A DNA stretch of 32,658 nt from Opitutus sp. GAS368 (lineage in GTDB: Bacteria; Verrucomicrobiota; Verrucomicrobiia; Opitutales; Opitutaceae), in assembly GCA_945869845.1 (NCBI GenBank), contig CAMBRG010000027.1, positions 1 through 32,658 on the forward strand. The letters run 5' to 3'. Both the position numbers and the translations under genes were made by a program. Shown piece by piece: positions 4,588 through 29,639 of the stretch; the stretch's first letter is position 1, and each line of letters opens with the position of its first letter. The notes beneath the pieces were generated by a model. It made no database searches. It saw only the letters and a program-made list of their open reading frames with translations, and was not told the DNA's origin.

Positions 4588-4591
4588 GGCA

Positions 4592-11981: not shown

Positions 11982-12346
11982 GCGTGGTTGATTCGAAGTT
12001 TTAGAGTGATTCAGGAGCTGAATTTTGCTCGGAAATTGCAGGCTGCACGCGTGGGAGCCATTTTTGAAAGCAGCGCTGCAGAAGCCCTTCTCGTGTGGGA
12101 GGTATGGGGCATAGGCTGTTGATAGGAAAATCCCCGAGCACGGCGCGAGGGTATTCCGCACGGATTCGAGGATTCACACGGATAGACCTGCGGGACCCGC
12201 GCGTGGAAGCGCGCAAACCAAAGGGCAATCTAGCGGCCCATGGATCCAATACTCGACGCTTATCAGTCTTAAACCGAAAATCCAAAAGCCTAGGGATTTC
12301 AATTTGAGGCCCTATTGCCCGTTGGGAGGACTCTACGTCCCCGTTT
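11982..12346. promoter_or_regulatory. Upstream region of hsdM with a perfect inverted repeat
   Basis: This 365-bp stretch separates the end of dsbD from hsdM and holds no convincing gene. It must contain the hsdM promoter, reading leftward. A perfect inverted repeat ATTCAG-3 nt-CTGAAT lies at 12009-12023, about 28 bp upstream of the hsdM ATG, a sensible place for a repressor site. Further right are the loosely repeated words cacggatt/cacacggata near 12168-12184. No clear dsbD terminator with a T-run was seen. Confidence 0.35.
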
Positions 12347-14530
12347 TCAGCCCTTGATCGCGTCGAGGACGATACCGGGGGTGAGCAGTTCGGGGAGGAG
12401 GAGGGGCTCGGGTTTGCCGGGTTTCCAGATGACGTTAAACGGGACGGCACTGCGCTGATACTTCGCGAGCTCGGTGGTGATGGCGGGGTCTTTGTTGGTC
12501 CAGTCGGCGCGGAGGGTGACGATTTTCTTGGCCGCGAATTCGCGGAGGACGGCGTCGGAGGTGAAAACGATTTTCTTGTTGGTCTGGCAGGTCGCGCACC
12601 AGCGGGCGGTGAAATCGACGTAGATCATACGGCCCTCGGCGCGGAGTTTCTCCACGGCGGCGGGGCTCCATTTTTCCCAGACGACTTCGGGCGCGCCGGC
12701 GGCTTGGGCGGCGGCGATTTTCGCTTCCGTGTTTTCGGGCCAACCGGTCCAGACGCCGAGGGCGAGAACGAGCGCGCCGGTGACCGTGCCGAAGCGGACT
12801 TTGCCGGGCTTGGTGCCGGGCTGGTTGTAGCGGCCGTAAAACCAGACGCCGAGGGCGATGAGGACGAGGCCGAAGAGGGCCATGAGCGAGCCGTTCTCCG
12901 TGGTCTGGCCAGCGAGCACCCAAGCGAGGTAGGCGACGGTGGCGTAGAGCGGAAACGCCATGAACTGCTTGAACGTTTCCATCCACGCGCCGGGACGGGG
13001 CAGGATTTTCACCGCGGCGGGGAAGATCGAGAGCAGCAGATACGGCCCGGCGAGACCGACGGCGATGGCGGTGAAGACGGCGAACGACTCGATGGTACTC
13101 AGGGTGAGCGCGGCGCCGAGCGCGGGCGCGAGGAACGGCGCCGAGCACGGCGTGGCGACGACGGTGGCGAGCACGCCGGTGAAGAACGAGCCGGCGAAAC
13201 CGGATTTGCTTTGGAGATCGGAGCCGACGCCGGTCGCGCTGAGGCCGAACTCGAAGACGCCGCTCATGTTCATCGCGAAGATGAGCATCACGGCGGCGAG
13301 GCCGAAGACGAAGAGGGGCGACTGAAGTTGAAACCCCCAACCGAGCTGATCGCCACCGGCGCGGAGCACGGCGAGGACGGCGGCAAGGGACCAGAACGAG
13401 AGCAGCACGCCGAGGGCGAAGACGAGGCCGTGAAGAATGACCTTTTTCTTGTCCTGGCCCGCCTGATTGACGAAGCCGAGGATTTTTATGCCCAGCACGG
13501 GGAAGACGCAGGGCATCAGGTTCAAGATCAGGCCGCCGACGAGGGCGAGGAACAGGGTGCTGATGAGAGAAACGGGGGCGGAGGCTGCGCTGGGTGCGGC
13601 TGTAGGCCCGACCGCGGGTCGGGCGTTTGCGTCGGGGGTGCCGGAAGCCCGACCAACGGTCGAGCCTACCGCGGCGGGCGCGGCGGCGAAGGGCAGGTCG
13701 ACGCGGAGGCCGCGGAGGGAGCCGTCGGCGAGCCAGCCTTTTTCGTTGGTGAGCACGCCGGCGAGTTTCGTGGCGTCTTTCGGGGCGTCAGGGGAAATGG
13801 AGAGCGTGAGCACGTAGCCGCCGGCGCCGTCGGGGGTGATGGTTTGCGGGAGTTCATAGGCGACGAGGTTGTCGTCGGCGAAGAAGCGGAGATCAGCGGG
13901 GGTGGAAGCCCGACCGGCGGTCGGGCCTACAGGGGACACCTTGAGGGTGATGGTTTTGGTGTCGCGGGAAGCCGAGGTTTTCCAAGCTGCATCGGCGCGG
14001 GGGAGGCCGGCGACGACGGCGGAAACGCGGGAGCCGAACGCGGCGTCGGGCGCGGCGGTGGCGGCAACGGGAAGGGTGAGCGTGACGTCGGCGTTGCCGG
14101 GCATGCAGACGTCTTCACACATGAGCCACTCGGCCGAGGCTTTGAGGGTAATCGTGGAGCCGGCGGTGAGACCGGCGGGCGGGGTGAGCGTGATGGGCAA
14201 GAACGTGTCGTTTTCGAAACCGTTGCCGGTGATGGCGCCGGCTTTGTCTTTGATGACGTAGGGGGCGGGCCACTGGATCGCACTGGCAGTCCAGCCGGGC
14301 GGGAGCGACCACTTGATCTCCGTGACGAGGCCGGTGCCGGGATTGATCCAGTACGTGTGCCAGTGGGGTTGATGGACGAGACGGAGGGCGACCTGCACGG
14401 ATTTCCCGGGGACGATAGCGGTCTCGGCGGCAACGAGAGAGGCCTTAACCTGAGCGCGGGCGACGGCGGGCAGGAGCGCGGCGAGGCCGAGGGCGAGCAA
14501 GGACAGAAGAGAAAGGCGGGGAAATCTCAT
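12347..14530 (-). CDS. dsbD: Thiol:disulfide interchange protein DsbD/ScsB-like (transmembrane electron carrier)
   Basis: DsbD-type proteins carry reducing power from cytoplasmic thioredoxin across the inner membrane to periplasmic thiol proteins. The 727-aa product has a signal peptide (1-26), an N-terminal periplasmic domain with CEDVC (138-142), a CcdA-like core from about 322 with the paired membrane cysteines in NLMPCVFP (C341) and VVATPCSAPF (C462), and a C-terminal thioredoxin domain with WCATC (644-648). All three cysteine pairs are present, so it should be functional. ATG 14530 is preferred over an upstream in-frame start because the signal peptide begins there. The periplasmic domain carries three insertions of a palindromic element, translated as VGPTAGRAS (201-209), VGSTVGRAS (288-296) and RPAVGPT (304-310). 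It could supply electrons to the TlpA-like proteins encoded further right. It is divergent from the sigma factor gene. Confidence 0.92.
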   Translation of the reverse strand: MRFPRLSLLSLLALGLAALLPAVARAQVKASLVAAETAIVPGKSVQVALRLVHQPHWHTYWINPGTGLVTEIKWSLPPGWTASAIQWPAPYVIKDKAGAITGNGFENDTFLPITLTPPAGLTAGSTITLKASAEWLMCEDVCMPGNADVTLTLPVAATAAPDAAFGSRVSAVVAGLPRADAAWKTSASRDTKTITLKVSPVGPTAGRASTPADLRFFADDNLVAYELPQTITPDGAGGYVLTLSISPDAPKDATKLAGVLTNEKGWLADGSLRGLRVDLPFAAAPAAVGSTVGRASGTPDANARPAVGPTAAPSAASAPVSLISTLFLALVGGLILNLMPCVFPVLGIKILGFVNQAGQDKKKVILHGLVFALGVLLSFWSLAAVLAVLRAGGDQLGWGFQLQSPLFVFGLAAVMLIFAMNMSGVFEFGLSATGVGSDLQSKSGFAGSFFTGVLATVVATPCSAPFLAPALGAALTLSTIESFAVFTAIAVGLAGPYLLLSIFPAAVKILPRPGAWMETFKQFMAFPLYATVAYLAWVLAGQTTENGSLMALFGLVLIALGVWFYGRYNQPGTKPGKVRFGTVTGALVLALGVWTGWPENTEAKIAAAQAAGAPEVVWEKWSPAAVEKLRAEGRMIYVDFTARWCATCQTNKKIVFTSDAVLREFAAKKIVTLRADWTNKDPAITTELAKYQRSAVPFNVIWKPGKPEPLLLPELLTPGIVLDAIKG
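13602..13628 (+). repeat. 27-bp palindromic element inside dsbD, copy 1 (degenerate end)
   Basis: The copy reads GTAGGCCCGACC-GCG-GGTCGGGC and then diverges. The arms GCCCGACC/GGTCGGGC are perfect. It is in the opposite orientation to the other two copies and is translated as RPAVGPT in DsbD. Confidence 0.75.
13643..13669 (-). repeat. 27-bp palindromic element inside dsbD, copy 2
   Basis: The plus strand reads GGAAGCCCGACC, AAC, GGTCGAGCCTAC. One arm carries a G-to-A change. It is translated as VGSTVGRAS and lies 14 bp from copy 1 in inverted orientation. Confidence 0.75.
13904..13930 (-). repeat. 27-bp palindromic element inside dsbD, copy 3
   Basis: The plus strand reads GGAAGCCCGACC, GGC, GGTCGGGCCTAC, with perfect 8-bp arms. 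It is translated as VGPTAGRAS. Its 27-bp length equals nine codons, so the frame is kept. Confidence 0.8.
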
Positions 14531-14723
14531 GAGGTGATTTTGGGCGAGACAGATCGGAGGCGCAAACCGGCAGGATTGTTCCCGCAGCGGAGGCGGCGAG
14601 GCAAGGATGGTAACGGGAACGTTAGCCAACCGGGCGGGAAAAATTTGTTTAGCGGAATTTCGGGCTTCGCGTGTTCAAGCTCCGTAGGTTTCTTCAGGCA
14701 AATCGCCGCCTGCTCTGTTTTTC
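14531..14723. promoter_or_regulatory. Divergent promoter region between dsbD and the ECF sigma gene
   Basis: These 193 bp lie between divergent start codons, so they must carry promoters for both dsbD (leftward) and the sigma/FecR pair (rightward). I see no reliable -35/-10 pair or strong ribosome binding site on either side, in keeping with the generally weak Shine-Dalgarno sequences in this window. Confidence 0.4.
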
Positions 14724-15266: not shown

Positions 15267-16342
15267 AGCCCGAACCGACACAACCGCGTTCGCGGGAGGA
15301 AATCGAGCGGACCGCCGCAGAATGGGTGCTGCGGCGGGACCGTGGGCTCACGGCGACGGAGCAGGACGAACTCTCCCAATGGCTCGCGGCCGATGCGCGT
15401 CACGGCGCGGCGCTGGCGTTGCACCGTTGGGGTTGGGACGAACTCGACCGGCTCGCTGGTCTGCAAACTTCGCTCGGGGCCGTGCCCGACCCGGACCTGT
15501 TCGCGCCCCGGACGAAGGTGCGGGTACGGCGCTGGTGGTGGCTCGCGGCCACGGCTTCGCTGGCGGCGGCCGCAGGGGGCGCGCTGCTGATCACCACGCG
15601 CTCGCCGCCCGTCGCACCGGAGCAGGCAACGCCAATGGTTGCGGTATCGACGGTGCTCGCGGCCCCTTGCGAACGCCTGACCTTGGAGGACGGATCGGTG
15701 GTCGACTTGAATCGTGGGTCGAGCGCCGAGGTGGACTATTCGGCGACCGAGCGGCGCGTGCGGTTGGTCCGCGGCGAGGCGAGTTTCACCGTCGCGAGGA
15801 ATTCCGCGCGGCCGTTCGTGGTGAGCGCGGGCGGCGTCGATGTGCGCGCGGTGGGCACCGTCTTTAATGTGCGTTTTGCCCGTGAGGCGATCGAGGTGGT
15901 CGTCTCGGAAGGCCGGGTGAAATTGGAAAACTGGAGCGGCGACGCCCTCGTCGCCGGGGCCGCAAACGCGACGGGGGCGACGCGTCCCCAGCCGGCATCG
16001 GATATCCTGCTCTCGGTCGGCGAGAGTGCGTTGGTCTCTTTGGGGCCGTCGTCGCCGACGCAGTTCGCCACGCTTTCAGCGGACGAGATCGCGGCGCGGT
16101 TGGCGTGGCAGCCGCGCCTGCTGGATTTTACGGATGCGGCGCTCGCAGAAATCGTGGCGGAGTTCAACCGGCGCAACCCGGTGCAGCTTGTGGTGGGCGA
16201 TCCCGAGTTAGGTGCGGTGCGACTCAGCGCGACGTTTCGATCGGACAACGTCGAGGGCTTCGTGCGCTTGATGGAATCGGATTTCGGCATGCGCGCGGAG
16301 TGGCGGAGCGAGCGCGAGGTCGTGCTGCGACGGGCGAAGTGA
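15263..16342 (+). CDS. FecR-family anti-sigma/sigma regulator, membrane-anchored
   Basis: FecR proteins span the inner membrane and pass the signal from a ligand-loaded TonB receptor to the cognate ECF sigma factor. The 359-aa product has an N-terminal cytoplasmic domain of the DUF4880 type (about 14-56, EWVLRRDRGLT, ELSQWLAADARHGAALAL), one membrane segment (about 91-111, WWWLAATASLAAAAGGALLI), and a periplasmic FecR domain (about 130-230, LEDGSVVDLNRGS, GEASFTVARN, GTVFNVRF). Near the C-terminus a short STN-like region (LAEIVAEFNRRNPVQLV) is typical and may contact the receptor. The start at 15263 overlaps the sigma stop; an in-frame ATG at 15215 would lie inside the sigma gene. It is followed 115 bp later by the receptor it presumably serves. 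Confidence 0.92.
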   Translation: MKPEPTQPRSREEIERTAAEWVLRRDRGLTATEQDELSQWLAADARHGAALALHRWGWDELDRLAGLQTSLGAVPDPDLFAPRTKVRVRRWWWLAATASLAAAAGGALLITTRSPPVAPEQATPMVAVSTVLAAPCERLTLEDGSVVDLNRGSSAEVDYSATERRVRLVRGEASFTVARNSARPFVVSAGGVDVRAVGTVFNVRFAREAIEVVVSEGRVKLENWSGDALVAGAANATGATRPQPASDILLSVGESALVSLGPSSPTQFATLSADEIAARLAWQPRLLDFTDAALAEIVAEFNRRNPVQLVVGDPELGAVRLSATFRSDNVEGFVRLMESDFGMRAEWRSEREVVLRRAK

Positions 16343-16457
16343 ACGCGGCGTTGTGACGTTTCGGTGACGGCGTGCCAGACGGAGGATTTTTCTTAGCGGA
16401 AAGCGGCGGCTCGCGGTTTGTTGGTTCGAATCCGAACCACTCCGTTTCGCTATCACC

Positions 16458-19388
16458 ATGCACTTCCTCGCTCCCGTTTTGATCACTCGCCTCGCGCGAT
16501 TTGCGCTTCCGCTGCTCCTCGCGGCGTTTTCCATGCCCACGCTTAGCGCGGCCGAAGAGGCCAGAAAATCCTTCAGCGTGCCCGCCGGTGCCGCCGCGCA
16601 AACGCTCAAGCAGTTCGCCCAACAGGCCGCGCGCGAAATCGTATTTTCCCCGGAGGTCGTCGGTGATGTTAAGACAAACGCAGTGCAGGGCGAGCTAACG
16701 CCACGGGCCGCGCTTGACGCGATGCTGGCGGAAACCGGCCTGGTCGGTGCGCAGGAGCAAAAAACGGGTGCCTTCGCCGTGCGGAAAGCAGAACTCCCAA
16801 ACGCGCCGCGGGCGGAGCTGACAGGCGCCCGCCCGGAAAAATCTAGCAAAGCGGACCGAGGCCCGGTGGTTGAGCTCGTTCCGTTTGTTGTCTCGGGTGT
16901 CAGAGGGAGCCTGGCGAAGGCGATCGAGACGAAACGAGAGAGTGTCACGGTGGTCGATGCAGTCAGTGCCGAAGACATTTCAGTCTACCCGGACACGAAC
17001 ATCGCGGAATCGCTCCAGCGCATCAGCGGCGTGACCATCAATCGCACCAATGGCGAAGGGGAGCTTGTAAGCATCAGGGGGCTTTCGCCGCAATTCACTC
17101 TCGTGACGGCGCAGGGGCTGAGCGTCTCGTCGACCGCGATCAATGATGACGGCAATGTCCAGAACGGCCGCGCCATCAGTTTCGACATTTTCCCCTCGCA
17201 GCTGTTTGCGGGCGCCACGGTCGCCAAGACTCAGTCCGCAGAAACGATGGACGGTGGGCTTGCCGGGATGGTGGACTTGAAGCTGCCGCAGCCGTTTGCC
17301 TACAAGCACAACACCGCCGCCGTCTCCGTGTCGGAATCCTACTCGGATCTGACCAAAAAATGGGACCCGTCCGGCACGTTTTTTTGGTCGGCGAAATTAA
17401 ACAACACGGTTGGTGTGCTCGTGCAGGGGGTCTATACGCGGGACCTGCTCTACGCGGGAATCTCGGAAGGAACTCGTTGGAACACCTTCAATTTTCCGGC
17501 CCTGAACGCAACGAACGTGGAAATCGCCCGGCTCCCGCGGGTCGGCGAGGAGATCTACGAGAGGACGCGTCGCGCAGTGTCGACGACACTGCAATATCGG
17601 CCGTCGGACAAACTGGCGGTCAGCGTGTTCGGAATCGTGGGCGAATCCGCGAAGGATCGCTCGCGCGTGACGTTGCAGGGCAATCTGTTTGGTCCCGTGA
17701 ATCCGTCCGCCTTGGTCTTGGAAGGCAAACAGGCCGTCGCCGCGACTTTTGGCGCTGGAACCCAGGTGCGTTCGGGCGGGGACTTCAATTCGGTCGATAC
17801 CAATACGATTCTGGTCGGGCTGACCGCAGACGCGCTGGTGGGCAGCGATACGGCGGTCGCATTCAAGGCGTCGGCTTCCTCGGGCAAATTTGACCGTACG
17901 GTGGCCGCGATGGTCGGCCAAGCCACCGTGAACAACTTCACCTATGATTTTCGCGGCCATTCCGAGTATCCCACCATGACGTCATCAGCCATGGACTTTT
18001 CCAATCCGGCGGCGTTTTCGGTGATTCAGAATCAAAAAACCCGCGACCTACAGGAGGACGACGCCAAGCTGGTCAATCTGGCGGTCGATCACGGTTTGAG
18101 AGGAGATTTTCTAAAGAGCATCAAGGCGGGCTTGGAGTTCCGCACTCAGGAACGCACCCGTGACACGACTCGCGCCAACCTGCCGATTCCCGCCGGATTG
18201 GTCGCCCTGACCTCAGTCGCCGGTTTGCCCCGCTACGGCTACCTGCCCGACGCGCCATCGGGCGTGAACAAGACCTTTGCGGCTTTTGATCGTGGGCTTA
18301 CCTACAAAAACTTGATCGATCCGTATGCCGCCGTTCCGCTGCCGGTTCTGCCGAGCCTGACGTTTGGGATCAAAGAGGAGATTGTTGCGGGATTTCTTCA
18401 GGCGGATTTCAGCACCGAGTTGGCCCAGCGCCGGATTTCGGGCAATGTGGGCGTCCGTTACGCCCGCACCGAGCAAAATGCCTCGGGGTTTTCCGCGCAG
18501 GGAGCGCTCTCGACGCCGGTCAAGTTTAGCCGCGCCTACGACAATGTTCTCCCCAGCCTCAATCTGCGCAGCGAATTGAACGACGAAATGGTTCTGCGGT
18601 TCGCGGCTTCGCGCGGTATCACCCGACCGTCGCTCTCGGACCTCGCGCCCTCCGAAACGGTGAGTGCAGTCAATCCCACGGTCACCAAGGGTAATCCGAA
18701 CCTCGACCCGTATCTCGCCACTCAAATGGACCTCTCGTGGGAATGGTATTTTAAGAAAGACGCCCTCATCTCACTCGCGGTGTTCAACAAACAAATCGAC
18801 TCGCTGATCGTCACGAAGGCCGTGGTCGAACGTTACGTGCCTTACGATACGAACCGACCGGCCGGTGATTTTATCATCACGACCCCGGTGAACGGCGACA
18901 AAGCGACGGTCACCGGACTTGAGGCCAACTACCAGCAACCGTTCAGTTTTCTACCCAGTCCTTTCGATGGGTTCGGACTGCTCACGAACGTGACGGTCGC
19001 CACCAGCGAATCCACGTCGACCGTGGTGACGAACGCGACCACCGGCGTGACCCGCCAAGTCTCGACGCGGGTGCAGGGCCAATCGCCGGTTTCCTACAAC
19101 GCGATTCTCTACTACGACAAAGGACCGTTCCAGGTACGCATGGCCTATCATTGGCGCGACGATTACCTGATTCTCCTCCTCGGGGAAACGGAGGAACGCA
19201 TGAAACGCGCGACGGGAAATCTCGACCTGTCGATCAACTGGCGGGCCACCAACAAGCTCACGCTTTTCATGGAAGCACTCAACCTGACGAGCGAGGACAG
19301 CTATCTCTATGATCGCACCGAGTCGCGAAACATCGCCTTCGCCGACTACGGACGCACGATCAACTTTGGCGGGCGTTTCAAGTTCTGA
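16458..19388 (+). CDS. TonB-dependent outer-membrane receptor with STN signalling domain
   Basis: The 976-aa protein starts with a signal peptide (about 1-32, cleaved near LSAAEEA). An STN signalling domain follows (about 37-110, KSFSVPAGAAAQTLKQFAQQ through TPRAALDAMLAETGL), which talks to FecR in the periplasm. The plug is at about 140-280 (SVYPDTNIAESLQRISGVTI, VSIRGLS) and a 22-strand barrel ends with the aromatic terminus NFGGRFKF. The plug resembles large TonB receptors of the Caulobacter/Xanthomonas type, often used for sugars, oligosaccharides or phosphorylated compounds rather than only siderophores. Gene order sigma-FecR-receptor supports ligand-induced expression. The gene immediately downstream is an exported glycerophosphodiesterase, so a glycerophosphodiester or phospholipid-derived ligand is a reasonable guess. 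Substrate cannot be read from the sequence. Confidence 0.93.
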   Translation: MHFLAPVLITRLARFALPLLLAAFSMPTLSAAEEARKSFSVPAGAAAQTLKQFAQQAAREIVFSPEVVGDVKTNAVQGELTPRAALDAMLAETGLVGAQEQKTGAFAVRKAELPNAPRAELTGARPEKSSKADRGPVVELVPFVVSGVRGSLAKAIETKRESVTVVDAVSAEDISVYPDTNIAESLQRISGVTINRTNGEGELVSIRGLSPQFTLVTAQGLSVSSTAINDDGNVQNGRAISFDIFPSQLFAGATVAKTQSAETMDGGLAGMVDLKLPQPFAYKHNTAAVSVSESYSDLTKKWDPSGTFFWSAKLNNTVGVLVQGVYTRDLLYAGISEGTRWNTFNFPALNATNVEIARLPRVGEEIYERTRRAVSTTLQYRPSDKLAVSVFGIVGESAKDRSRVTLQGNLFGPVNPSALVLEGKQAVAATFGAGTQVRSGGDFNSVDTNTILVGLTADALVGSDTAVAFKASASSGKFDRTVAAMVGQATVNNFTYDFRGHSEYPTMTSSAMDFSNPAAFSVIQNQKTRDLQEDDAKLVNLAVDHGLRGDFLKSIKAGLEFRTQERTRDTTRANLPIPAGLVALTSVAGLPRYGYLPDAPSGVNKTFAAFDRGLTYKNLIDPYAAVPLPVLPSLTFGIKEEIVAGFLQADFSTELAQRRISGNVGVRYARTEQNASGFSAQGALSTPVKFSRAYDNVLPSLNLRSELNDEMVLRFAASRGITRPSLSDLAPSETVSAVNPTVTKGNPNLDPYLATQMDLSWEWYFKKDALISLAVFNKQIDSLIVTKAVVERYVPYDTNRPAGDFIITTPVNGDKATVTGLEANYQQPFSFLPSPFDGFGLLTNVTVATSESTSTVVTNATTGVTRQVSTRVQGQSPVSYNAILYYDKGPFQVRMAYHWRDDYLILLLGETEERMKRATGNLDLSINWRATNKLTLFMEALNLTSEDSYLYDRTESRNIAFADYGRTINFGGRFKF

Positions 19389-19490
19389 TCGCGTGCTGAC
19401 GGCCATGACCGCTTGGTTCGCCGGCGGCGTGGACGGCCGGGTCGGAAGCGGTTTTGACCCGGCACTGAAGGAACGAATCGAATTCTCCAA

Positions 19491-20426
19491 ATGATCTCAT
19501 CGCTGCGTTTTCGATTCTGGCCCGGATTCGTGGCCGCCTTCGGCCTCGCCCTTTGCGTTGCGACTGGAGCCGGGCCGCTGCGAGCTGCACCGACCCGGGC
19601 GGAAACCTTGCGGGCGACGTTGCTGCAAGGATCGCACTCGGAAATTTTCCTGGTCGCCCATCGGGGCGATTGGAGGAATTTTCCGGAGAATTCCCTCGCT
19701 GCGATTGAGGGCAGTATCGCGGGAGGCATGGAAATGGCCGAGATCGACCTGCAGCGCACGAAGGACGGCCATTTGATTCTCATGCACGACCCGTCCGTTG
19801 ACCGAACCACGACCGGGAAGGGCAACGTCTCCGACCTCACGCTAGAAGATATCCGGGGTCTTCGCCTGCGCGACGGGCTGGGGAGTCCCACGTCGTTTGC
19901 GGTTCCGACGCTGCGCGAGGCTCTCGTCGTGGCCCGTGGTCGAATCCTCCTGAATCTCGACAAGGGGTATCGGTATTGCGGTGAGGTGATGCCGCTGCTG
20001 GAGAAAACCAACACGCTAGGCCTCGTGCTGTTGAAAGGTCCTCTTTCGGTGGAGGAGGTGATGGCCGAGCAGGGGGATTTGCTGTCACGCGTGGCCTACA
20101 TGCCGGTGATTAATTTTGGGAAACCCGGCGCTGCGGACCGGTTGCAAGGGTGGCTGGAAAAAGCGAAGCCCTGCGCGGTCGAATTCGTGTTTACCGATTG
20201 GAGCACCGAATTGGCGGAAGCATTCGCCGAATGTCGCCGGCGGGGAGTGCGAATCTGGGTGAACGTGCTGTGGCCGCACCTGGCCGGCGGCCTGTCGGAT
20301 GATCTGGCCCTTAACAAACCTGACGAAGTGTATGGAGTGCTGCTCGATCGTGGGGTCAGTATCCTCCAAACGGATCGCCCGCGTGAGTTGCAGGCTTACC
20401 TCCGTCAGCGAGCGAGTCGCCTGTAG
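19491..20426 (+). CDS. Exported glycerophosphodiester phosphodiesterase
   Basis: GDPD enzymes hydrolyse glycerophosphodiesters to glycerol-3-phosphate and an alcohol, using two catalytic histidines and a metal in a TIM barrel. In this 311-aa protein the motif AHRGDWRNFPENSLAA (about 56-71) supplies the first His and the metal-binding Glu/Asn. EMAEIDLQRTKDGHLILMHD (81-100) supplies the acidic ligands and the second His (H99). DRTTTGKG and a C-terminal RGVSILQTDRP also fit the family. A signal peptide (about 1-32) indicates export. It lies 102 bp after the TonB receptor on the same strand and probably processes its ligand or feeds it phosphate and glycerol. Length is normal for the family. Confidence 0.93.
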   Translation: MISSLRFRFWPGFVAAFGLALCVATGAGPLRAAPTRAETLRATLLQGSHSEIFLVAHRGDWRNFPENSLAAIEGSIAGGMEMAEIDLQRTKDGHLILMHDPSVDRTTTGKGNVSDLTLEDIRGLRLRDGLGSPTSFAVPTLREALVVARGRILLNLDKGYRYCGEVMPLLEKTNTLGLVLLKGPLSVEEVMAEQGDLLSRVAYMPVINFGKPGAADRLQGWLEKAKPCAVEFVFTDWSTELAEAFAECRRRGVRIWVNVLWPHLAGGLSDDLALNKPDEVYGVLLDRGVSILQTDRPRELQAYLRQRASRL

Positions 20427-20509
20427 TTCATTTGCCGCGGCTTATCGCGGGCGGAGCATCGCAGTTTTTCGCGGAATAGGGTGAGGCGTGAGCGATGGCG
20501 GGCATGTTG

Positions 20510-20629
20510 GTGGCGCTTGGATTTTTGGTCTAAGAGGATGGTGACGACGCGGGATTCGGGGCTCATCCCGACGGCAGTGCGGCGGGCGGCGACGATCTTG
20601 GCGCCGCTCGACGTGCGGACGCCGAAACC
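20510..20629 (-). pseudogene. Decayed 3' fragment of a cysteine synthase-like gene
   Basis: On the minus strand this segment encodes VRTSSGAKIVAARRTAVGMS, then PESRVVTILLDQ. The intact cysteine synthase at 21306-22232 has VGTSSGANVIAALRTAVELG, then PESRVVTILCDR. At DNA level a 27-bp core (20534-20560) is identical to 21354-21380, while the flanks differ at many positions. The copy lacks the rest of the enzyme and has a scrambled end (DQKSKRHQ) in place of the usual ERYYST. It lies in the same orientation as intact cysK, with the DUF433/DUF5615 pair between the two copies. Confidence 0.8.
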
Positions 20630-20669
20630 CGGACTTGCGAGCGATGTGTTTTGGGGCAGCGTTGACGTT

Positions 20670-20921
20670 ATGAACCGCGAACAATTGCTCCAGCGCATCT
20701 GGATCGACCCCGGCCGTTGCAGCGGGCAGCCGTGCATTCGCGGGCATCGGATTTGGGTTTCGCTGATCCTCGATTTGCTCGCGGCGGGCGAATCGGTGGA
20801 GACCATTTTGAAGGACTATCCCGGCATTTCGCGTGAGGACGTGCAGGCCTGTATCGCTTACGGTTCGGAGATGGCGCGTGAACGGTTTGTCGAGATTCCG
20901 CTCGAGCCGGCCGGCACGTGA
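20670..20921 (+). CDS. DUF433-family antitoxin
   Basis: The 83-aa product shows the full DUF433 pattern: WIDPGRCSGQPCIRGHRIWV (11-30), then a segment with LILDLLAAGESVETILKDYP and an ISREDVQACIAYGSEMARER tail. DUF433 proteins are small helix-turn-helix antitoxins, typically paired with PIN-like DUF5615 proteins. ATG 20670 begins exactly at the family N-terminus; a longer reading frame upstream passes through the cysteine-synthase fragment and is not credible. It is coupled to the next gene by a GTGA overlap. It probably binds its own promoter, which would lie between the fragment and 20669. Confidence 0.9.
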   Translation: MNREQLLQRIWIDPGRCSGQPCIRGHRIWVSLILDLLAAGESVETILKDYPGISREDVQACIAYGSEMARERFVEIPLEPAGT

Positions 20922-21305: not shown

Positions 21306-22232
21306 TCAGTTGGCGAAAAGTTTCGTGGAGTAGTAACGCTCGGCGCGGTCGCAGAGGATGGTGACGACGCGGGATTCGGGCCCCAGCTCGACGGCGGTGC
21401 GAAGGGCGGCGATGACGTTGGCGCCGCTGGAGGTGCCAACGAGCAGCCCGAATTCGCGGCTGAGGCGGCGGGTCATCGCGATGGCGTCGGCGCTGGAGAC
21501 CTTGATCGCGCCATCGAGTTGAGCGCTGCGCAGTAGCGGGGGAACGTAACCGCCGGCGACGCCTTCGATGGAGTGGCAGCACGGCATCTCGCCAGAGAGC
21601 ATGGCGGCCTCGGCGGGTTCCATCGCGAGGATGCGCACCTTGGGGTTGGCGGCGCGGAGGGCGCGGCCGCAACCGGTGAGCGTGCCGCCGGTGCCGTAGC
21701 CGGCGACGAAGGCGTCCACGAGGCCGTGCATTTGGGAGAGAATCTCGCGGCCAGTGAAGTGCTCGTGGTCTTGGGCGTTGATGGGATTCTCAAACTGACG
21801 CGGGAGAAAAATATTGGCGTCGCGGGTGGCCATTTCGCGGGAGAGATCGATGCCGGTGGCGTAGCCGTTGGTGGCTTTGAAAAGTTGGACCTCGCCGCCG
21901 AACTGGCGGATGAGGTGGCGGCGCTCGATGCTGGCCGACTCGCTCATGAGGATGTGGACTTGGTAGCCCTTGGCGGCACCGACCATGGCGAGGGAAATCC
22001 CGGTGTTGCCGCTGGTGCATTCGAGGATGACAGAGTCGGCGTGGAGGAGGCCGCGGTCTTCGGCGTCTTCGACGATGCAGAGGGCGAGCCGGTCCTTGAT
22101 GGAGCCTGAGGGATTGAGGAACTCGGCCTTGGCGTAAAGGGTGCGGTCGACCTCGGCGAAGTGCAGCGGGATGAGCGCGGTGTTGCCGATGAGGGAAAGG
22201 ACCGGCGGGCGGGAGCGGGCGAGAGTGACCAT
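21306..22232 (-). CDS. cysK: Cysteine synthase family enzyme (PLP-dependent beta-replacing)
   Basis: Enzymes of this family make cysteine from O-acetylserine (or O-phosphoserine) and sulfide, using pyridoxal phosphate. Visible are the PLP lysine in NPSGSIKDR (K46), the substrate/phosphate loop TSGNTG (73-78), the PLP phosphate loop GYGTGGT and the C-terminal GTSSGAN. The 308-aa length is typical. ATG 22232 gives the standard N-terminus (VLSLIGNTALIPL); a GTG at 22301 would add 23 poorly fitting residues. It is last in a run of minus-strand genes after two exported redoxins and a TonB receptor, so it may act on sulfur gained through that system, though it could be separately transcribed (144-bp gap with a hairpin). 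A CysM-type or cystathionine-synthase-like specificity cannot be excluded. Confidence 0.88.
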   Translation of the reverse strand: MVTLARSRPPVLSLIGNTALIPLHFAEVDRTLYAKAEFLNPSGSIKDRLALCIVEDAEDRGLLHADSVILECTSGNTGISLAMVGAAKGYQVHILMSESASIERRHLIRQFGGEVQLFKATNGYATGIDLSREMATRDANIFLPRQFENPINAQDHEHFTGREILSQMHGLVDAFVAGYGTGGTLTGCGRALRAANPKVRILAMEPAEAAMLSGEMPCCHSIEGVAGGYVPPLLRSAQLDGAIKVSSADAIAMTRRLSREFGLLVGTSSGANVIAALRTAVELGPESRVVTILCDRAERYYSTKLFAN

Positions 22233-22329
22233 GGGAGCGACGGGTCGGAAGGGCAGATGAAGACCGAGGATTCGGCGACGGGCCGGAGGGGTCAACTTCA
22301 CCTCTGGTCCGCGGAGCCGGGTGTGAGGC

Positions 22330-22376: not shown

Positions 22377-23618
22377 TTATTGGGTCTTGGGAGCGACGGC
22401 AGGTTTGATGGTCGAGCCGGCGGGATAGAAACGCTTCGGTTGGTCGGCGGGGGCGATTTCGACGCCGGCGATCATGAGCAGGTTGGCGAGGGCTTGTTCG
22501 GTGGCGGGGCTGTAGCCGGCGTACATGCCGACGAATTTGCCCGCGGAATTGATCACGAGGGTCGTGGGCAACGGCGACATGACGCCTTGGGTGAGTTGCA
22601 CCATGACCGTCTTGGCCGAGGCCGCTCTGTCGCCGCTGGCGGGTTTGCCAATGGGATCGAAGACGGTGGGGAAGGTGTATTTCTCGCGGTTGGCCGTGAC
22701 CCACTTGTCGTAGGCCTCGCGGGTGTCGAACGAGCACACGCCGAGGACAATCACGTTTTTATCGGCGTAGCGGCGGGAAATTTCTTGGTAGTGCGGCATG
22801 GCTTGCAGGCAGGGCCCGCACCAGGTGGCCCAGAAATCGAGGATGACCGTCTTACCTTTGGCGAAGTCGGAGAACTTGCCGGGTTTACCGTCGGCAGTGA
22901 TGACGTCGAAATCGGGGATGGCGTCGCCGGCCTTGAGTTTACCGTAGCTCTCGCGGAAGGGGGGCGGTGGGTTTTTGGCTTTCTCGGCAGCGGCGGCGGC
23001 CGAGGCTTTGGCCTTGGCGTCGGCGGCGGCCACGATGGCGGCATCGACCTTGATGCCGGCGGTGGCGAGGGCGGCCTCGGTGCGCGGATCGGTGGCGCCG
23101 CCGTTGCCGACGATCACGCCGGCGATCTTGCCGTCGCGGCCGATGACAAACTGGGTGGGGATGCCGGTGACGCCGTAGAGCTTGCTGGACGCGCGCTCGG
23201 CGAAGGTGGCGGAGTCGCGCTCATTGGGGTCCCACGCGAAGATGAGGTCGGGGTATTTCGGCTGGTTGACGGGAATCCACTCGCGGAATTTGGCGATGGT
23301 ATCGCTGGTGCCGGAGGCGAGGACGACGACGCCCTGGTCCTTGTATTTGGCGGCGAGGGTTTGGGTATGGGGGAAGGAGGCGATGCACGGTCCGCACCAC
23401 GTGGCCCAGAAATCGAGGACAACGACCTTGTCTTTGTAGTCGCTGAGGCGGACGTCGGCACCCGCGAGGTTTTTCATGACGAAGTCGGGGGCGATTGCCC
23501 CGACGCGCAGGGTCGCCGGCGCGGCGACCGGGGTCGCGGCGTGGGCGGTGGTGAGGACCGCGGCGGCGAAGAGGGCGGTCGCCGGAGCGAAGAGAGAGCG
23601 GAGAAAAACGGTTTTCAT
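22377..23618 (-). CDS. Exported protein with two TlpA-like thioredoxin domains
   Basis: The 413-aa product has a signal peptide (about 1-28, ending TAHAA) and two redoxin/TlpA domains. Domain 1 (about 40-190) carries DFWATWCGPC (C75/C78). Domain 2 (about 228-380) carries the same DFWATWCGPC (C267/C270). They are joined by an Ala/Lys-rich linker (about 195-220). Each has the cis-Pro-containing segment expected of thioredoxin folds (TGIPTQFVIG in domain 1, SPLPTTLVIN in domain 2). Domain 1 is very close to domain 2 of the larger neighbour at 23724-26186, and the signal peptides also match, so the two genes arose by duplication. The probable role is reduction of disulfides in the periplasm, with electrons perhaps delivered by a DsbD-type protein. 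Specific targets are unknown. Confidence 0.88.
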   Translation of the reverse strand: MKTVFLRSLFAPATALFAAAVLTTAHAATPVAAPATLRVGAIAPDFVMKNLAGADVRLSDYKDKVVVLDFWATWCGPCIASFPHTQTLAAKYKDQGVVVLASGTSDTIAKFREWIPVNQPKYPDLIFAWDPNERDSATFAERASSKLYGVTGIPTQFVIGRDGKIAGVIVGNGGATDPRTEAALATAGIKVDAAIVAAADAKAKASAAAAAEKAKNPPPPFRESYGKLKAGDAIPDFDVITADGKPGKFSDFAKGKTVILDFWATWCGPCLQAMPHYQEISRRYADKNVIVLGVCSFDTREAYDKWVTANREKYTFPTVFDPIGKPASGDRAASAKTVMVQLTQGVMSPLPTTLVINSAGKFVGMYAGYSPATEQALANLLMIAGVEIAPADQPKRFYPAGSTIKPAVAPKTQ

Positions 23619-23723: not shown

Positions 23724-26186
23724 TCAGCGCATCGCGTCGCGGTTGGCTTGATCGAGTTTGGCTTTGGCCAGGATCTCGGGAGCGACCTTGATGCCGGCTC
23801 GGGCGAGGGCGGCTTCGAGGAGGACTTCGCCCTTGAGGTAGCCGGTGCAGAGGGCGGCGATCTTGCCGTCGCGCCCGATGATGAATTGCTGCGGAATGCC
23901 GCCGACGCCGTAAAGTTTATGCGAGGCGCGATCGGCGCCGCGTTCCTGCGGGTCGTGGGAGAACAATATCTCGGGGTAGGTGGCTTGGTTTTTCTTTACC
24001 CAGGCTTCGAAGGCGGCGCGGGGGTCACTCGTGCACGAAGCGAGGACGACGACTCCTTGGTCTTTATAGCGGGCGGCGACTTCGTTGGTGTGCGGCATCG
24101 AGGCGATGCAAGGTCCGCACCAGGTGGCCCAGAAATCCAAGATGACGACTTTCCCGCGGAAGTCGGAGAGTTTCACGGCTTTGCCGTTGAGATCGGTCGC
24201 GGGGAAATCGGGCGCGGCCGCACCGACCTTGAGCATTTCTACTTTCGCTTCTGGAACCGGCGGTTTGGTCTCCGCGGCGGTCCAGATTTTTTTCGGCATA
24301 TCGTCGGTCGCGAGTTTGACGCCGGCGCGCAGGAGGAGATTGCCGATGCCTTCAGCGACATGGGCACCGCCACCGACGACGATGCCGACCATATCGCCTT
24401 GGGCGTCGATGACGTAGGCGTGGGGGACGGGCGCCATGGCTCCGCCGGTGAAGACCAGCGGGGCGACTTTCTTCATGTGCTCACGTTGGAGGGTTCCGAA
24501 TGCCTTCTTTTCCTCCGGAGTCATCCCGTTGAAATCTTTCGCGGGTTGTGGGCCGCGGCCGGCGGGATCGAAGTAAACGGGAAAACTGATTTTGCCGGCA
24601 TTCTTCTCCCGCCACTGTTCAAAGTTCTCGCGCGTGCTGTAGGCGGAGAGCGCAACGACCACGACGCCTTGGCCGGCATACTTGCGCGACAGATTATCGT
24701 AGAACGCCAAGCCGTCGGCCTGCAGGCCGCCGCCGGAGCTGATGGAGAAGATGGCGGTCTTGCCCTTGATGATCTCGGACAGATTCACCGACTGGCCGTC
24801 CACGTTTTGCAGCGTGACGTTCGGCACGGGCTGGCCGGCAACCAGCTTGGCGTAATTTTCCATGAAGGGTGCCTGCGGAGGCGCGGATGCCGCCGCCTTG
24901 GCCGCTGCGGCTTCATCCGCCGCGGACTTTATGAGCGCAGCTTTGCCGGCGGTGGCGGTGGCTTCGTCGACCTTTACGCCGGCGAGGGCGAGGGCGCCCT
25001 CGGTGCGGGTGTCGGTGTCGCCGCCGTTGCCGACGATGCTGGCGACGATCTTGCCTTCGCGACCGATGACGAACTGCGTGGGAATCCCGGTTACGCCGTA
25101 AAACCTCGAAGAGGCGCGCGCCTCAAACGTTGCTGAACCGCGCTCGTTCGGATCGAAGACGAAGACCATATCGGCATACTTCGGCTGGTTGACCGGGATC
25201 CATTTTTTGAACGCCGCGATCGTGTCGCTCGTGCCCGAGGCGAGCACGACTACGTCCTGATTTTTATATTTCGCCGCCAGCTTCTGCGTGTGCGGGAAGG
25301 AGGCGATGCACGGTCCGCACCACGTGGCCCAGAAGTCGAGGATGACGACCTTGCCCGTAAAATCCGCCAGTCGGACCTCCTTATCGTTCAGGTCGCGCAT
25401 CACAAAGTCCGGCGCAACGGCGCCCGCCGCCAGCAAGGTTGCTCTGGGGGCGACCGCAGCCCCGCCCGCCGCCGCGCTTGGCGATGGCTGGATGGCCGCC
25501 GCCGCGCTTGCGCCGCCACCGCTACCCATGCTGCCGGCCCGAAATCCTCCGCCCGCGGCGATGAGAGCGTCCCCGTGCGCCTCCGTGATCTCGATGCCGG
25601 CCCGTAGGAGCGACGAGTAAGTCATCGCCACGACCTTCTCTCCCACCCCGATGAAACCGCTCCAGAGTTTGCCGTCGGGCTTGATCACGGCCGTTGCGGG
25701 CTGCATGCCCACCCCCAACACGGTGTTGGTGACGTTTTCCGCCGAGGCCTTGCCGGCCGGGTCCCACGCGGCGGTGAAGCCGGGGTTGGGGTTGGCTGCG
25801 ACCCACTGGTCGAAGGTGTCCTTCTCGGTCCCGGAGAACACGACGAGGGCGACGAGCCCCTGATTCTTGTAGGCGGCGGCGATCTGGCCGACCCAGGCCT
25901 GCGGTCCTTCGCTGGTGCAGAACTGGACGAGCAGGGGTTTGCCGCGGAACGAGGAGAGCTTGACCGGCTTGCCGTCGGTGCCGGTGACGGTGAAGTCCGG
26001 CATCAGGGCATTGCGTGCGACCTTGCCGAACTTGTCGGGGGTGAAGCCGCTGCCGCCGCCCGGCGCGGGCGAGCCCATGCCAACCATGGCGGTTTTGGAC
26101 TCCGCGGCCATGGCGGGGGAGAGGAGAGCGAAGGCGAAGAGGGCGGTCGCCGGGGCGCGGAGCGAGCGGATGAGCGGGTTTTGCAT
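23724..26186 (-). CDS. Exported protein with four thioredoxin-like domains, two lacking the CxxC
   Basis: This 820-aa protein has a signal peptide (about 1-28) and four redoxin folds in tandem. Domain 1 (about 55-205) has only QFCTSEGP in place of WCxxC. Domain 2 (about 250-405) has ATWCGPC (C290/C293). Domain 3 (about 445-625) has SISSGGGLQA and no cysteine at the site. Domain 4 (about 650 to the end) has ATWCGPC (C690/C693). Catalytic and non-catalytic domains therefore alternate, as in protein disulfide isomerases where inactive domains bind substrate. A Gly/Ala-rich linker lies at about 205-245 and an Ala-rich helix at about 405-440. ATG 26186 was chosen because it starts the signal peptide. 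It lies 73 bp after the TonB receptor gene and 105 bp before its two-domain paralogue, same strand, so probably one operon. Confidence 0.88.
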   Translation of the reverse strand: MQNPLIRSLRAPATALFAFALLSPAMAAESKTAMVGMGSPAPGGGSGFTPDKFGKVARNALMPDFTVTGTDGKPVKLSSFRGKPLLVQFCTSEGPQAWVGQIAAAYKNQGLVALVVFSGTEKDTFDQWVAANPNPGFTAAWDPAGKASAENVTNTVLGVGMQPATAVIKPDGKLWSGFIGVGEKVVAMTYSSLLRAGIEITEAHGDALIAAGGGFRAGSMGSGGGASAAAAIQPSPSAAAGGAAVAPRATLLAAGAVAPDFVMRDLNDKEVRLADFTGKVVILDFWATWCGPCIASFPHTQKLAAKYKNQDVVVLASGTSDTIAAFKKWIPVNQPKYADMVFVFDPNERGSATFEARASSRFYGVTGIPTQFVIGREGKIVASIVGNGGDTDTRTEGALALAGVKVDEATATAGKAALIKSAADEAAAAKAAASAPPQAPFMENYAKLVAGQPVPNVTLQNVDGQSVNLSEIIKGKTAIFSISSGGGLQADGLAFYDNLSRKYAGQGVVVVALSAYSTRENFEQWREKNAGKISFPVYFDPAGRGPQPAKDFNGMTPEEKKAFGTLQREHMKKVAPLVFTGGAMAPVPHAYVIDAQGDMVGIVVGGGAHVAEGIGNLLLRAGVKLATDDMPKKIWTAAETKPPVPEAKVEMLKVGAAAPDFPATDLNGKAVKLSDFRGKVVILDFWATWCGPCIASMPHTNEVAARYKDQGVVVLASCTSDPRAAFEAWVKKNQATYPEILFSHDPQERGADRASHKLYGVGGIPQQFIIGRDGKIAALCTGYLKGEVLLEAALARAGIKVAPEILAKAKLDQANRDAMR

Positions 26187-26259: not shown

Positions 26260-29235
26260 TTATTTGATCGGGATACTGAAGGACAGTTCGTAAGTGCGGC
26301 CCAAGATAAGTTCCCGATGGAGCCCGGCGTTGAAGCCCCAGAGCGTGGCGGAATAGGGCGGCTTCTTGTCCAAGATATTGCTGACGCCGACGCTCACACG
26401 AACGCCCTTGCCGTAGCTGCGCCACAGGCCGTTCTTGAAATCGTAGCCGCCGCGCAGGTCGATCTTGGAGACGGCCGGCGTGGGGAAGTAGGTAACGGCA
26501 GCGCTATTCGCGACGTTGATGCTGCCGGCATTGTTGGAGTTAAATCCGTCGAGGTGCCAAAGAAACGCGGACCCGTTCCACGAGCCTTTGCGCCAAAAGA
26601 CCGACGCGTTGTATTTCCATTTGGGCGGCGACGAGGTATCGCCATCGAGGACAACCTCGGCCTGGCCGGGCGCAACCTTGCGGGTGAAACTCAGGTTGCG
26701 ACTGGCGGAAAAATTCATGCGCCAACGGCCGAACTGCTCCCAAGGCGCGACGTATTCGAGGACGTAGTCCATGCTGCGGCTGCTGATCCGCCCAAAGTTC
26801 ACGAAGACGCGGTTCACCCCGGTAATCTGGCCGGGTTGATTGAGAGCGACATCGGACGGGGTGGTCGCGGCCCGCACCACGCGGTCGGGGAAAAGCGCTT
26901 CGTTGTTAATGATGGTTTGAGCGGTGATAAGCTGGAAGACGTCCTTTTGGATCGTATCGTAGAAGTTGACCTGAAGCGTGAGGCCTTTGGCGAACGTGGG
27001 CTCGTAGATCAGACCCGCGAATGAAGTTTCGGATAGCTCCGGGCTAGCCACACGGTTGGAGCCCCGATTCTCGACGATGCCCGGGGTAGTCGCGGGCGTG
27101 CGGCGCGGATCGGTCAGGGTCGACGTCACGGTCGTCGGTGGGATCAGGTATTCGGTGACACCGGGAGCGCGGAAGCCTTCGCTCCAGCTCGCACGGATCA
27201 ACACGGGCTGCACGGGGCTCCACGAGAAGCCGACCTTGGGCACGGCTTTGGAAAACTCCCGGATGGTCTCCCGGCGACCAGCGACTTGGAAGTCGAGTCG
27301 GCGGAGCATCGGCAGGGAATTGCGTTTACCAAAAGCAGGCAGGAACGCCTCGGCGAAAACCGCGTTGCTGGTCTGGGCTCCCAGCAAGGTGGTGATCGTG
27401 GTGACGGGGACTACGACCGCCGAGAAATTGGTCGAGGTTGTCGTGACGTTCGACCGATTGGTCGAGCCGCCGGCAGCAAGTTTGGCGGTGCCGCCCGGAA
27501 GGTCGAAGACGTCGCCGTCAGCCGTAAAATCGAGGCCCGTGTTCTTCGAGGCCGAATCGATCTTTGGATAAAGCGAGAGGGTTTCAAGTTTGGCGGCCTG
27601 CGACGGCGCGCCGGGGGCGCCGGCGTCGATGAACGGATTGAAGCGCGCATTGACATCGGGATTGGTCAAGAGACCGGCAAGGCCTGCGCCGTTGAAGATG
27701 CGGTTGGTCTGAAGCGCGGTCTGGCGTTGCCAGGATGCGCCCAAGTCCCAGCGCCAAGTCGCGGCCCACTTGCCTTCGACGCCGATGGTGGCGGCTTGGT
27801 CGCGGGTGAGCATGGTCTGCGAAGTCGAACCCCACTCCGGGAGGACCATGGCGACCGTGACGTTTTGATTGAAAGGATTAAACGCGGCCGGCAGGGCCAC
27901 GGCCGTGCCGAAGCCGCCGGTGATCGAAGTGGTTGGTTGCGAGTTGAACTTACTGGCGGAGCGGGACGTGCGATAGTTAGCGTAGAGCGAAACGAGGTCG
28001 TTGAAACGGTAGTTGAGGTTGCCGCTGGCGCCGGAGCGTTCGGACTCGGGAACGAGATCGAGGAAGGACGCAGTGTTCATCCGGCGCTGGGCCGACGCGT
28101 TTACGACGGTAGCCGGCGAAAAGACCGTTTGGGAGGGAATGAATTGGCTGATCGAGGGCGTTGCGGTGGCGCCGGTGGGTACCAACACGACCCGCACCCC
28201 GGGAATGGCGTTGAAGTTACCGACCACGGTGCCGCCGGCGGCTTGGATCACAGCCGGGTAACCCCAGTTAAATCGGTAATCGATGCCGAAGCGCGGGGCT
28301 CCGGTGGCGTTCAGCGTGCCGGAGACGCGGTTGGACTGGTTTTGCTCTTTGGAGTAAGAGCGATCGGAAGCTTTGAGATTTTGGCGGTCGAAATAGTTGA
28401 GGGTGACCGTGCCGCTGAGCTTTCCGTAGGAGAATCCGGAAACGATGGAGGCGCTGCGTTCGCGTCCGCCGCCGTGCTCGGTCGCTTTGTAGCCCGACGA
28501 TAGCTCCGTGCCGGAGTAGTTTTTCTTCAGGATGATATTGATCACGCCGCCGACGGCATCGGCGCCGTAGATCGCGGAAGCGCCATCGGTGATGACTTCG
28601 ATGCGCTCGATCATGCCGATGGGAATCGTGTTGAGATCGACGAAGCCTTGGCGGGTATCGGTTGAGCGGTTGCCGTTGCCGGATTGGGCGGTGCGACGAC
28701 CGTCGACGAGGACGAGGGTCGAGCCTGAACCAAGACCGCGGAGATTGGCGCCGGACACGCCAGTTTGGGCGGGCGGAGCGTCGGCGGCACCCACCACAAA
28801 GTTAAACGCCGGGCTGGAGGTTTCGGTGCGTTGGGCGAAATCTGGGTTAAACTCGTCGGGCGAACTACCCCGGCCCGAGGCGATACCGGCGTAGCTCTGG
28901 GGGATTTGATTGAGGAAGTCCGACAGGGTCATCGCGCCGGAGGAGCGGAGGTATTCCTGATCGAACGAGCTGACGGGCGATGGACCTTCGAGGTCGGTGC
29001 GGCGAATGCGGGAGCCGAGGACTTCGACGGCATCGAGGCGCAGGGCGGCGTTGAGCTTGGCGGCTTCCACTGGGTCGGCCGGTTTTGGCGCCGCCGCAGG
29101 GGCCGCGGTCGTAGTCGGCGCCGGCTCCGCTTTTTTGGCCGGGGCGGCCGCCGGAGTCGTTTGGGCGATGATGCCGGCGGGGGAGAACACGAGGCCGGTG
29201 GTGAGCAGCCCGAGGAGGAGTCGGTTAGGTTTCAT
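26260..29235 (-). CDS. TonB-dependent outer-membrane receptor
   Basis: The 991-aa product has a signal peptide (about 1-24), then a Pro/Ala-rich low-complexity stretch (about 26-55) in place of an STN domain. The plug follows (about 68-240): LDAVEVLGSRIRRTDLEGPS, SGANLRGLGSGSTLVLVDGR and YGADAVGGVINIILKK, all standard plug motifs. The remainder is a beta-barrel ending TYELSFSIPIK, where most receptors end in an aromatic residue. It lacks the signalling domain, so it is not directly tied to an ECF sigma factor. ATG 29235 was chosen at the signal peptide over an in-frame start nine codons upstream. The downstream genes encode exported thioredoxin-like proteins and a cysteine synthase, pointing to uptake of a disulfide-, thiol- or metal-containing compound, which is inference. 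Confidence 0.92.
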   Translation of the reverse strand: MKPNRLLLGLLTTGLVFSPAGIIAQTTPAAAPAKKAEPAPTTTAAPAAAPKPADPVEAAKLNAALRLDAVEVLGSRIRRTDLEGPSPVSSFDQEYLRSSGAMTLSDFLNQIPQSYAGIASGRGSSPDEFNPDFAQRTETSSPAFNFVVGAADAPPAQTGVSGANLRGLGSGSTLVLVDGRRTAQSGNGNRSTDTRQGFVDLNTIPIGMIERIEVITDGASAIYGADAVGGVINIILKKNYSGTELSSGYKATEHGGGRERSASIVSGFSYGKLSGTVTLNYFDRQNLKASDRSYSKEQNQSNRVSGTLNATGAPRFGIDYRFNWGYPAVIQAAGGTVVGNFNAIPGVRVVLVPTGATATPSISQFIPSQTVFSPATVVNASAQRRMNTASFLDLVPESERSGASGNLNYRFNDLVSLYANYRTSRSASKFNSQPTTSITGGFGTAVALPAAFNPFNQNVTVAMVLPEWGSTSQTMLTRDQAATIGVEGKWAATWRWDLGASWQRQTALQTNRIFNGAGLAGLLTNPDVNARFNPFIDAGAPGAPSQAAKLETLSLYPKIDSASKNTGLDFTADGDVFDLPGGTAKLAAGGSTNRSNVTTTSTNFSAVVVPVTTITTLLGAQTSNAVFAEAFLPAFGKRNSLPMLRRLDFQVAGRRETIREFSKAVPKVGFSWSPVQPVLIRASWSEGFRAPGVTEYLIPPTTVTSTLTDPRRTPATTPGIVENRGSNRVASPELSETSFAGLIYEPTFAKGLTLQVNFYDTIQKDVFQLITAQTIINNEALFPDRVVRAATTPSDVALNQPGQITGVNRVFVNFGRISSRSMDYVLEYVAPWEQFGRWRMNFSASRNLSFTRKVAPGQAEVVLDGDTSSPPKWKYNASVFWRKGSWNGSAFLWHLDGFNSNNAGSINVANSAAVTYFPTPAVSKIDLRGGYDFKNGLWRSYGKGVRVSVGVSNILDKKPPYSATLWGFNAGLHRELILGRTYELSFSIPIK

Positions 29236-29639
29236 GGGTGTAGTTCGATCAAAGGAAAACAACGGGATCGGTGAGACAACGTCAGGCCCGAAGTTTTGGG
29301 AAGGATAAGTTTAGAGCCGATGTCGTGCCCAGACCATAGGGCAAAAGTAACAAAACTCCGGCGGGCACGGGCGCAGGCGCGAAGCGGCGGCGACTTTTGC
29401 CGCCAGAGGATTTATGCGCGGGTTGACGGAGCTGATCCGCAAATCGTGGCAAGCAGCTGACGGGGTGCCGCCCCGCCCGCCTCCGTGGCCACGGCGTTAC
29501 GTTACATCTGTGTGAACTCCTCACGAGTGCTCGCCCTCGGCTCGCCGAAACGCCAAGGGTCAATGTCGGAAACAGGCGTCCGCCTGCCGCTGCGCTTTGC
29601 AGCGTCCGTCAGCCCGGGATTCCAGCGGCTCCCTTCACC
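29236..29639. promoter_or_regulatory. Divergent intergenic region between the TonB receptor and the His-rich membrane protein
   Basis: This 404-bp stretch holds no credible gene. It must carry a leftward promoter for the receptor operon and a rightward one for the membrane protein. Two hairpins stand out: GGCGGC-7 nt-GCCGCC (29386-29404) and CGCTGC-5 nt-GCAGCG (29588-29604), the latter 36 nt before the ATG at 29640. I could not match either to a known riboswitch by eye. Confidence 0.35.

Follow-up and report, generated by a model that had tools for sequence, protein, structure and literature searches.

The question raised by this locus is why a bacterial redoxin should carry, on one predicted exported chain, active redoxin domains alternating with domains that have lost the catalytic CxxC motif. 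The gene lies in the window, the 32,658-nucleotide stretch of Opitutus sp. GAS368 (family Opitutaceae, phylum Verrucomicrobiota) analysed here. The first-pass annotation had likened its product to the a-b-b'-a' plan of eukaryotic protein disulfide isomerases (PDIs) and had proposed that the inactive domains may hold substrate. Searches of an open-access library of papers turned up no account of such an alternating redoxin family.

Domain layout of the four-domain redoxin

Four TlpA/ResA-type redoxin domains (AhpC-TSA/Redoxin) were found in the window protein, with the Pfam AhpC-TSA model matching four times along the chain (1e-63 for the whole protein). The CxxC motif was kept in domains 2 and 4 and absent from domains 1 and 3. 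The first-pass annotation had placed the open reading frame, the number of domains and the motif stretches correctly, with WCGPC in domains 2 and 4, QFCTSEGP in domain 1 and SSGGG in domain 3. Its term 'cysteine-less' is accurate for domain 3, which contains no cysteine, but only partly so for domain 1, where both catalytic cysteines are absent and Cys90 is present. The remaining cysteines of the protein are Cys290 and Cys293 in domain 2 and Cys690, Cys693, Cys718 and Cys780 in domain 4, the last two lying outside the motif.

Cys90 was considered as a possible one-cysteine active site and ruled out, as it aligns (QFCTSEGPQ) with the Trp of FWATWC rather than with either catalytic cysteine and is unconserved, the equivalent position across relatives being Cys, Ser, Asn, Ala or Val. 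The N-terminal signal-like stretch resembles that of the downstream two-domain gene, and export of the window protein to the periplasm is predicted from this N-terminus. The features of the locus are listed in Table 1.

Table 1. Features of the redoxin locus in the window, with class letters as used for the family (+, active; -, dead)
Feature	Coordinates	Strand	Remarks
TonB-dependent receptor	26260..29262	-	Upstream, same strand; zero cysteines
Four-domain redoxin, predicted exported, 820 aa	23724..26186	-	B-C+D-E+; ATG at 26186, stop ends at 23724
Signal-peptide-like N-terminus, aa 1-27	26106..26186	-	Read from sequence comparison
Domain 1 (class B), aa 54-207	25566..26027	-	Inactive redoxin fold, retains cis-Pro
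Former active-site stretch of domain 1, Cys90-Gln96	25899..25919	-	CTSEGPQ
Domain 2 (class C), aa 250-413	24948..25439	-	Active redoxin
Active site of domain 2, aa 290-293	25308..25319	-	CGPC
Domain 3 (class D), aa 446-632	24291..24851	-	Inactive redoxin fold; conserved helical insert precedes cis-Pro
Former active-site stretch of domain 3, aa 483-487	24726..24740	-	SSGGG
Domain 4 (class E), aa 650-808	23763..24239	-	Active redoxin
Active site of domain 4, aa 690-693	24108..24119	-	CGPC
Two-domain redoxin, predicted exported	22377..23618	-	WCGPC in both; classes c and d (sister clades of C and D)
CysK-like enzyme (cysteine synthase family)	21306..22301	-	Second CysK; housekeeping copy lies elsewhere
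DsbD	12347..14629	-	N domain, membrane domain and C-terminal thioredoxin domain

Fold of the inactive domains

Both inactive domains have a redoxin fold, as the first-pass annotation had assumed, and the outcome it had named as refuting its reading, a structure other than the thioredoxin fold in domains 1 and 3, was not observed. The class B profile (alignment A2) matched ResA/TlpA structures with a best E of 3.5e-15 and the class D profile (alignment A3) with a best E of 9.6e-10. In hhalign comparisons with the active domain-4 profile, A2 and A3, representing the classes of domains 1 and 3, gave 99.9 and 99.5% respectively with most of their length aligned. Both dead classes keep the cis-Pro without exception (P115 in A2 and P148 in A3). 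Domain 3 predicted alone had a pLDDT of 95.9 and a pTM of 0.91 and resembled ResA/TlpA-type chains. For domain 1, the fold is based on the sequence profiles and on the full-chain model, within which its pLDDT was about 75–91; the pTM of that model was 0.37, which is uninformative on domain packing. Foldseek with the full chain returned ResA and DsbE/CcmG-type chains, a whole-chain match in which the aligned domain is unspecified.

Distribution and architectures of the family

Strong family matches were found in 68 of the 252 Opitutaceae genomes and 17 of the 49 genera, some of the genomes entering the count through a shorter member or the two-domain gene. With strict cut-offs and evenly drawn samples, the D profile, searched across the phylum, and the B profile, searched across the order, had matches solely in the Opitutaceae, and within these searches the family is confined to that family of Verrucomicrobiota. 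Genome contigs were also scanned with alignment A1, the patterns of which are the WCGPC stretch, and the matches listed were mostly single-domain TlpA homologues from other phyla. Among the matches listed were Poribacteria redoxins of 821–831 aa with two active domains (L053 and L057) and a redoxin with an active–inactive pair from a Kuenenia MAG (L105).

The domains of about 70 proteins were typed using profiles for classes A to E and for classes c and d of the two-domain gene. The commonest architecture, present in 25 proteins, was A+B-C+D-E+, in which A, C and E are active and B and D dead. Three proteins had the seven-domain form A+B-C+d+C+D-E+, and the further architectures A+B-d+C+D-E+, C+D-E+, D-E+, B-E+ and c+d+ were also found, giving a size range of two to seven domains. 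The motif cysteines were missing from all 42 B and all 54 D domains, and CxxC was kept in 41/41 A, 55/56 C, 58/58 E, 6/6 c and 18/18 d domains (178/179 in total), where domains scoring below 120 bits against their own class were left out, among them two whose motif is not intact, a d-like domain and a degenerate D-like one. L042 and L167 are one contig entered twice, which inflates a few of these counts by one. Chance or a sequencing artefact was ruled out as the source of the pattern in the window, as the same positions lack cysteine in all relatives examined. The sole damaged C-class motif among the typed domains was WSAPC, in L169 at 9507–11384.

The loops that once held the active site in B and D vary between genera, and no conserved binding motif substitutes for the cysteines. 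Linkers are variable and rich in Ala and Pro, with large differences in how far spacing is constrained. The D–E spacer is near constant, at six residues between profile envelopes in 41 of 52 cases, and the C–D spacer is 23 residues in 30 of 47, whereas the A–B and B–C spacers are widely variable. The occurrence of D-E and B-E as separate two-domain proteins suggests that dead-plus-active pairs may behave as units.

Cysteine loss and selection

The domain-wise phylogeny suggested in the first-pass annotation was carried out under a mixture model, and it set B and D apart as distinct lineages. A, B, C, D, c and d formed separate clades, C with weaker support, and E came close to doing so without being recovered as one. 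D was sister to the active class d, and C grouped with c. Since B and D are separate clades, the cysteines would have been lost about twice. A circular class assignment was ruled out, as with the active-site columns removed the tree of 272 domains required only four changes of cysteine state, a number that fits roughly two main losses, in B and in D, plus isolated later ones.

Median dN/dS values were 0.20 for B, 0.21 for D, 0.10 for C, 0.08 for E and 0.19 for A. B and D evolve about twofold faster than C and E, yet at dN/dS far below one, and are under purifying selection. The alternation of active and inactive domains on one chain, as first described for the window protein, recurs in the family, and the inactive domains are kept by selection. 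With this pattern fixed in dozens of related Opitutaceae proteins, the dead domains are probably functional components of a putative periplasmic thiol-reducing system.

The window genome also encodes a five-domain paralogue. In the window protein, the signal-like segment is followed by residues matching the A–B linker of five-domain relatives; judged from these residues, the B-C-D-E arrangement is a derived form of the five-domain protein in which domain A has been lost. In the mixture-model tree, the branch of window domain 1 measured 0.30 compared with 0–0.06 in its sisters, indicating faster evolution in the copy that has lost domain A. The orthologue in G009, which is split across two contigs sharing a 170-base overlap (99% identity), is apparently a five-domain protein.

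Gene neighbourhood

On the minus strand of the window, the TonB receptor, the four-domain redoxin, the two-domain redoxin and the CysK-like gene follow one another with gaps of 73, 105 and 75 bases. DsbD lies further along, beyond plus-strand genes; in G009 and G001 it comes directly after CysK. The plus-strand genes (15215–20921), which encode a FecR-like regulator, a second TonB receptor, a glycerophosphodiester phosphodiesterase and a DUF433 protein, apparently split a cluster that is contiguous in those two genomes.

A TonB receptor was immediately upstream of at least 26 of the 57 family genes with enough flank, a lower bound as the window receptors served as queries. In 18 of 34 cases CysK2, the second copy, or DsbD was no more than 11 kb away, and several loci had neither CysK nor DsbD nearby. 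These loci share descent and the two counts are not made up of independent cases. FecR was often among the neighbours of family genes. Against the cysteine synthase model, the locus CysK2 scored about 330 bits compared with about 427 for the housekeeping copy elsewhere. Seven of eight genomes had one DsbD_TM match each. DsbD was at the redoxin locus in the window genome, where it is the only DsbD_TM match, and in G019 and G096, and on another contig in G032. For G005 (96% complete, five-domain protein present), neither a DsbD match nor a CysK2-type match was found.

Two further Opitutaceae loci had a TonB receptor followed by a single-domain redoxin predicted to be exported (L028 at 2885–14824, with FecR in front, and L038 at 1923–15027), and receptor–redoxin pairing seems to be a wider theme within the family. 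The window also holds a type I restriction-modification cluster on the minus strand (1567–12161) with two methylase-like genes, comprising an HsdR-like gene (1567–4725), an N6-methylase-like gene (5912–8233), a specificity subunit (8230–9807) and HsdM (9639–12161).

Oxidative disulfide machinery

Matches to DsbB were absent from all eight genomes searched, and VKOR and a strong DsbA were each found in one of the eight, both in G096. Weak partial DsbA matches were obtained in the window genome, G010, G005 and G019, and no DsbA match in G188, G179 and G032. For the window genome, the assembly of which is 83% complete so that absences in it carry little weight by themselves, the weak partial match to the DsbA model was 24.7 bits (29.3 with neighbours), and DsbB and VKOR had no match; in G188, a single contig rated 100% complete, DsbA, DsbB and VKOR were all unmatched. 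Overall, seven of the eight genomes, including the window genome, lacked the combination of a convincing DsbA with either DsbB or VKOR. This scarcity argues against an oxidative folding role, although an unrecognised oxidant is conceivable. The presence of DsbD in the neighbourhood, as the sole DsbD of the window genome, likewise points to reduction rather than oxidative folding.

Proposed function and alternative explanations

The reading we favour, to which we give roughly an even chance of being correct, is a DsbD-fed periplasmic reductase of the TlpA/ResA type, tied to a TonB receptor and using B and D as docking modules. DsbD would be the electron donor for the active domains C and E, together with A in the five-domain form, and these domains would in turn reduce something associated with the adjacent TonB receptor, at a disulfide or at another oxidised sulfur group. 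B and D would exchange no electrons and would serve as docking or positioning modules at fixed positions, each bringing a substrate or partner beside the active domain that follows, with D–E as the most rigid pair. Substrate holding by inactive domains 1 and 3, the role first suggested for them, is a plausible candidate. The adjacent CysK copy suggests that the sulfide or thiol released may feed cysteine synthesis. Several observations count against this reading, namely the five-domain protein of the 96% complete G005 genome with neither a DsbD nor a CysK2-type match, the position of DsbD on another contig in G032, the loci with neither CysK nor DsbD close by, and the unconserved former active-site loops of the dead domains. 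The neighbouring genes may also be co-inherited without a joint function. A more specific version, tentative and in our view rather doubtful, is a TonB-linked, DsbD-fed sulfur-scavenging reductase in which the dead domains would have the dedicated task of loading substrate into the active domains beside them, a system arising in the Opitutaceae independently of PDI.

A DsbD-fed reductase with docking dead domains fits the observations better than a PDI-like oxidative folding enzyme or isomerase, in which the active domains would shuffle disulfides of exported proteins and the dead domains would bind unfolded substrate as PDI b' does. The alternation of active and dead folds and the variable, Ala/Pro-rich linkers would suit such an enzyme, and a DsbD-type reducing partner is no obstacle, given that E. 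coli DsbD has the isomerase DsbC among its partners. A domain order other than a-b-b'-a', domains of the TlpA/ResA type, an adjacent receptor containing zero cysteines and the seven of eight genomes short of oxidative machinery nevertheless make it distinctly unlikely. It is also unlikely, if slightly less so, that the dead domains are spacers only, which would determine how far apart the active domains sit, or how long the chain is, and bind nothing specifically. Their roughly twofold faster evolution relative to C and E and their unconserved former active-site loops would be expected of spacers; purifying selection at dN/dS of about 0.2, the invariant cis-Pro and the conserved insert in D would not, B-E and D-E two-domain proteins have nothing to space apart, and classes B and D never include an active domain.

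A role in cytochrome c maturation, as a ResA/CcmG-like reductase, is suggested by the best named family, ResA (NF002854, 218 bits for the whole window chain against a cut-off of 170, a score summed over several domains), by top structural matches to ResA and DsbE/CcmG-type chains, and by the supply of CcmG by DsbD in E. coli. We consider this role very unlikely, as none of the window genes was recognisable as encoding a cytochrome c or a Ccm/Res protein and the recurrent neighbours are the TonB receptor, CysK and DsbD. Least probable of all is a decaying tandem duplication in which domains 1 and 3 are functionless, degenerate leftovers. The long branch of window domain 1 after the loss of domain A is what decay would produce, but B and D lack the cysteines and are under purifying selection in all relatives across many genera, which contradicts decay for the family, and D folds confidently.

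In combining active and inactive domains the family is a bacterial counterpart of PDI, and the plan is fixed in its members throughout the Opitutaceae. Its natural variants of two to seven domains, probably soluble, make the role of non-catalytic thioredoxin domains testable by domain removal. If the favoured reductase reading is correct, it would point to a thiol-reducing periplasmic system linked to TonB uptake in the Verrucomicrobiota.

Comparison with known systems

The closest likeness is to the ResA/TlpA/CcmG (DsbE) reductases, which share the domain fold, the WCGPC motif (in A, C and E here), a signal-like N-terminus and a nearby DsbD gene, in agreement with the ResA score above. Those reductases are single-domain, whereas the Opitutaceae family has two to seven domains per chain and two classes that permanently lack the cysteines.

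The likeness to eukaryotic PDI is limited to the combination of active and inactive thioredoxin folds on one chain, predicted here to be exported, and this part of the first-pass comparison stands. The order, the subfamily and probably the pathway differ. PDI is a-b-b'-a' with classical thioredoxin domains; the window protein is inactive-active-inactive-active, a truncation of the canonical A+B-C+D-E+ of its relatives, in which B and D are dead and the domains are of the TlpA/ResA type, so that the a-b-b'-a' plan first proposed does not apply. Against the PDI model TIGR01130 the window protein scored 48.6 bits, far below the cut-off of 344.25, and most of the genomes checked here apparently have no oxidative pathway. 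The DsbC/DsbG isomerases with DsbD resemble the Opitutaceae system in having DsbD as a possible reductive partner; they are dimers with one active domain in each subunit, whereas in this family the multiplicity of domains is achieved within one chain.
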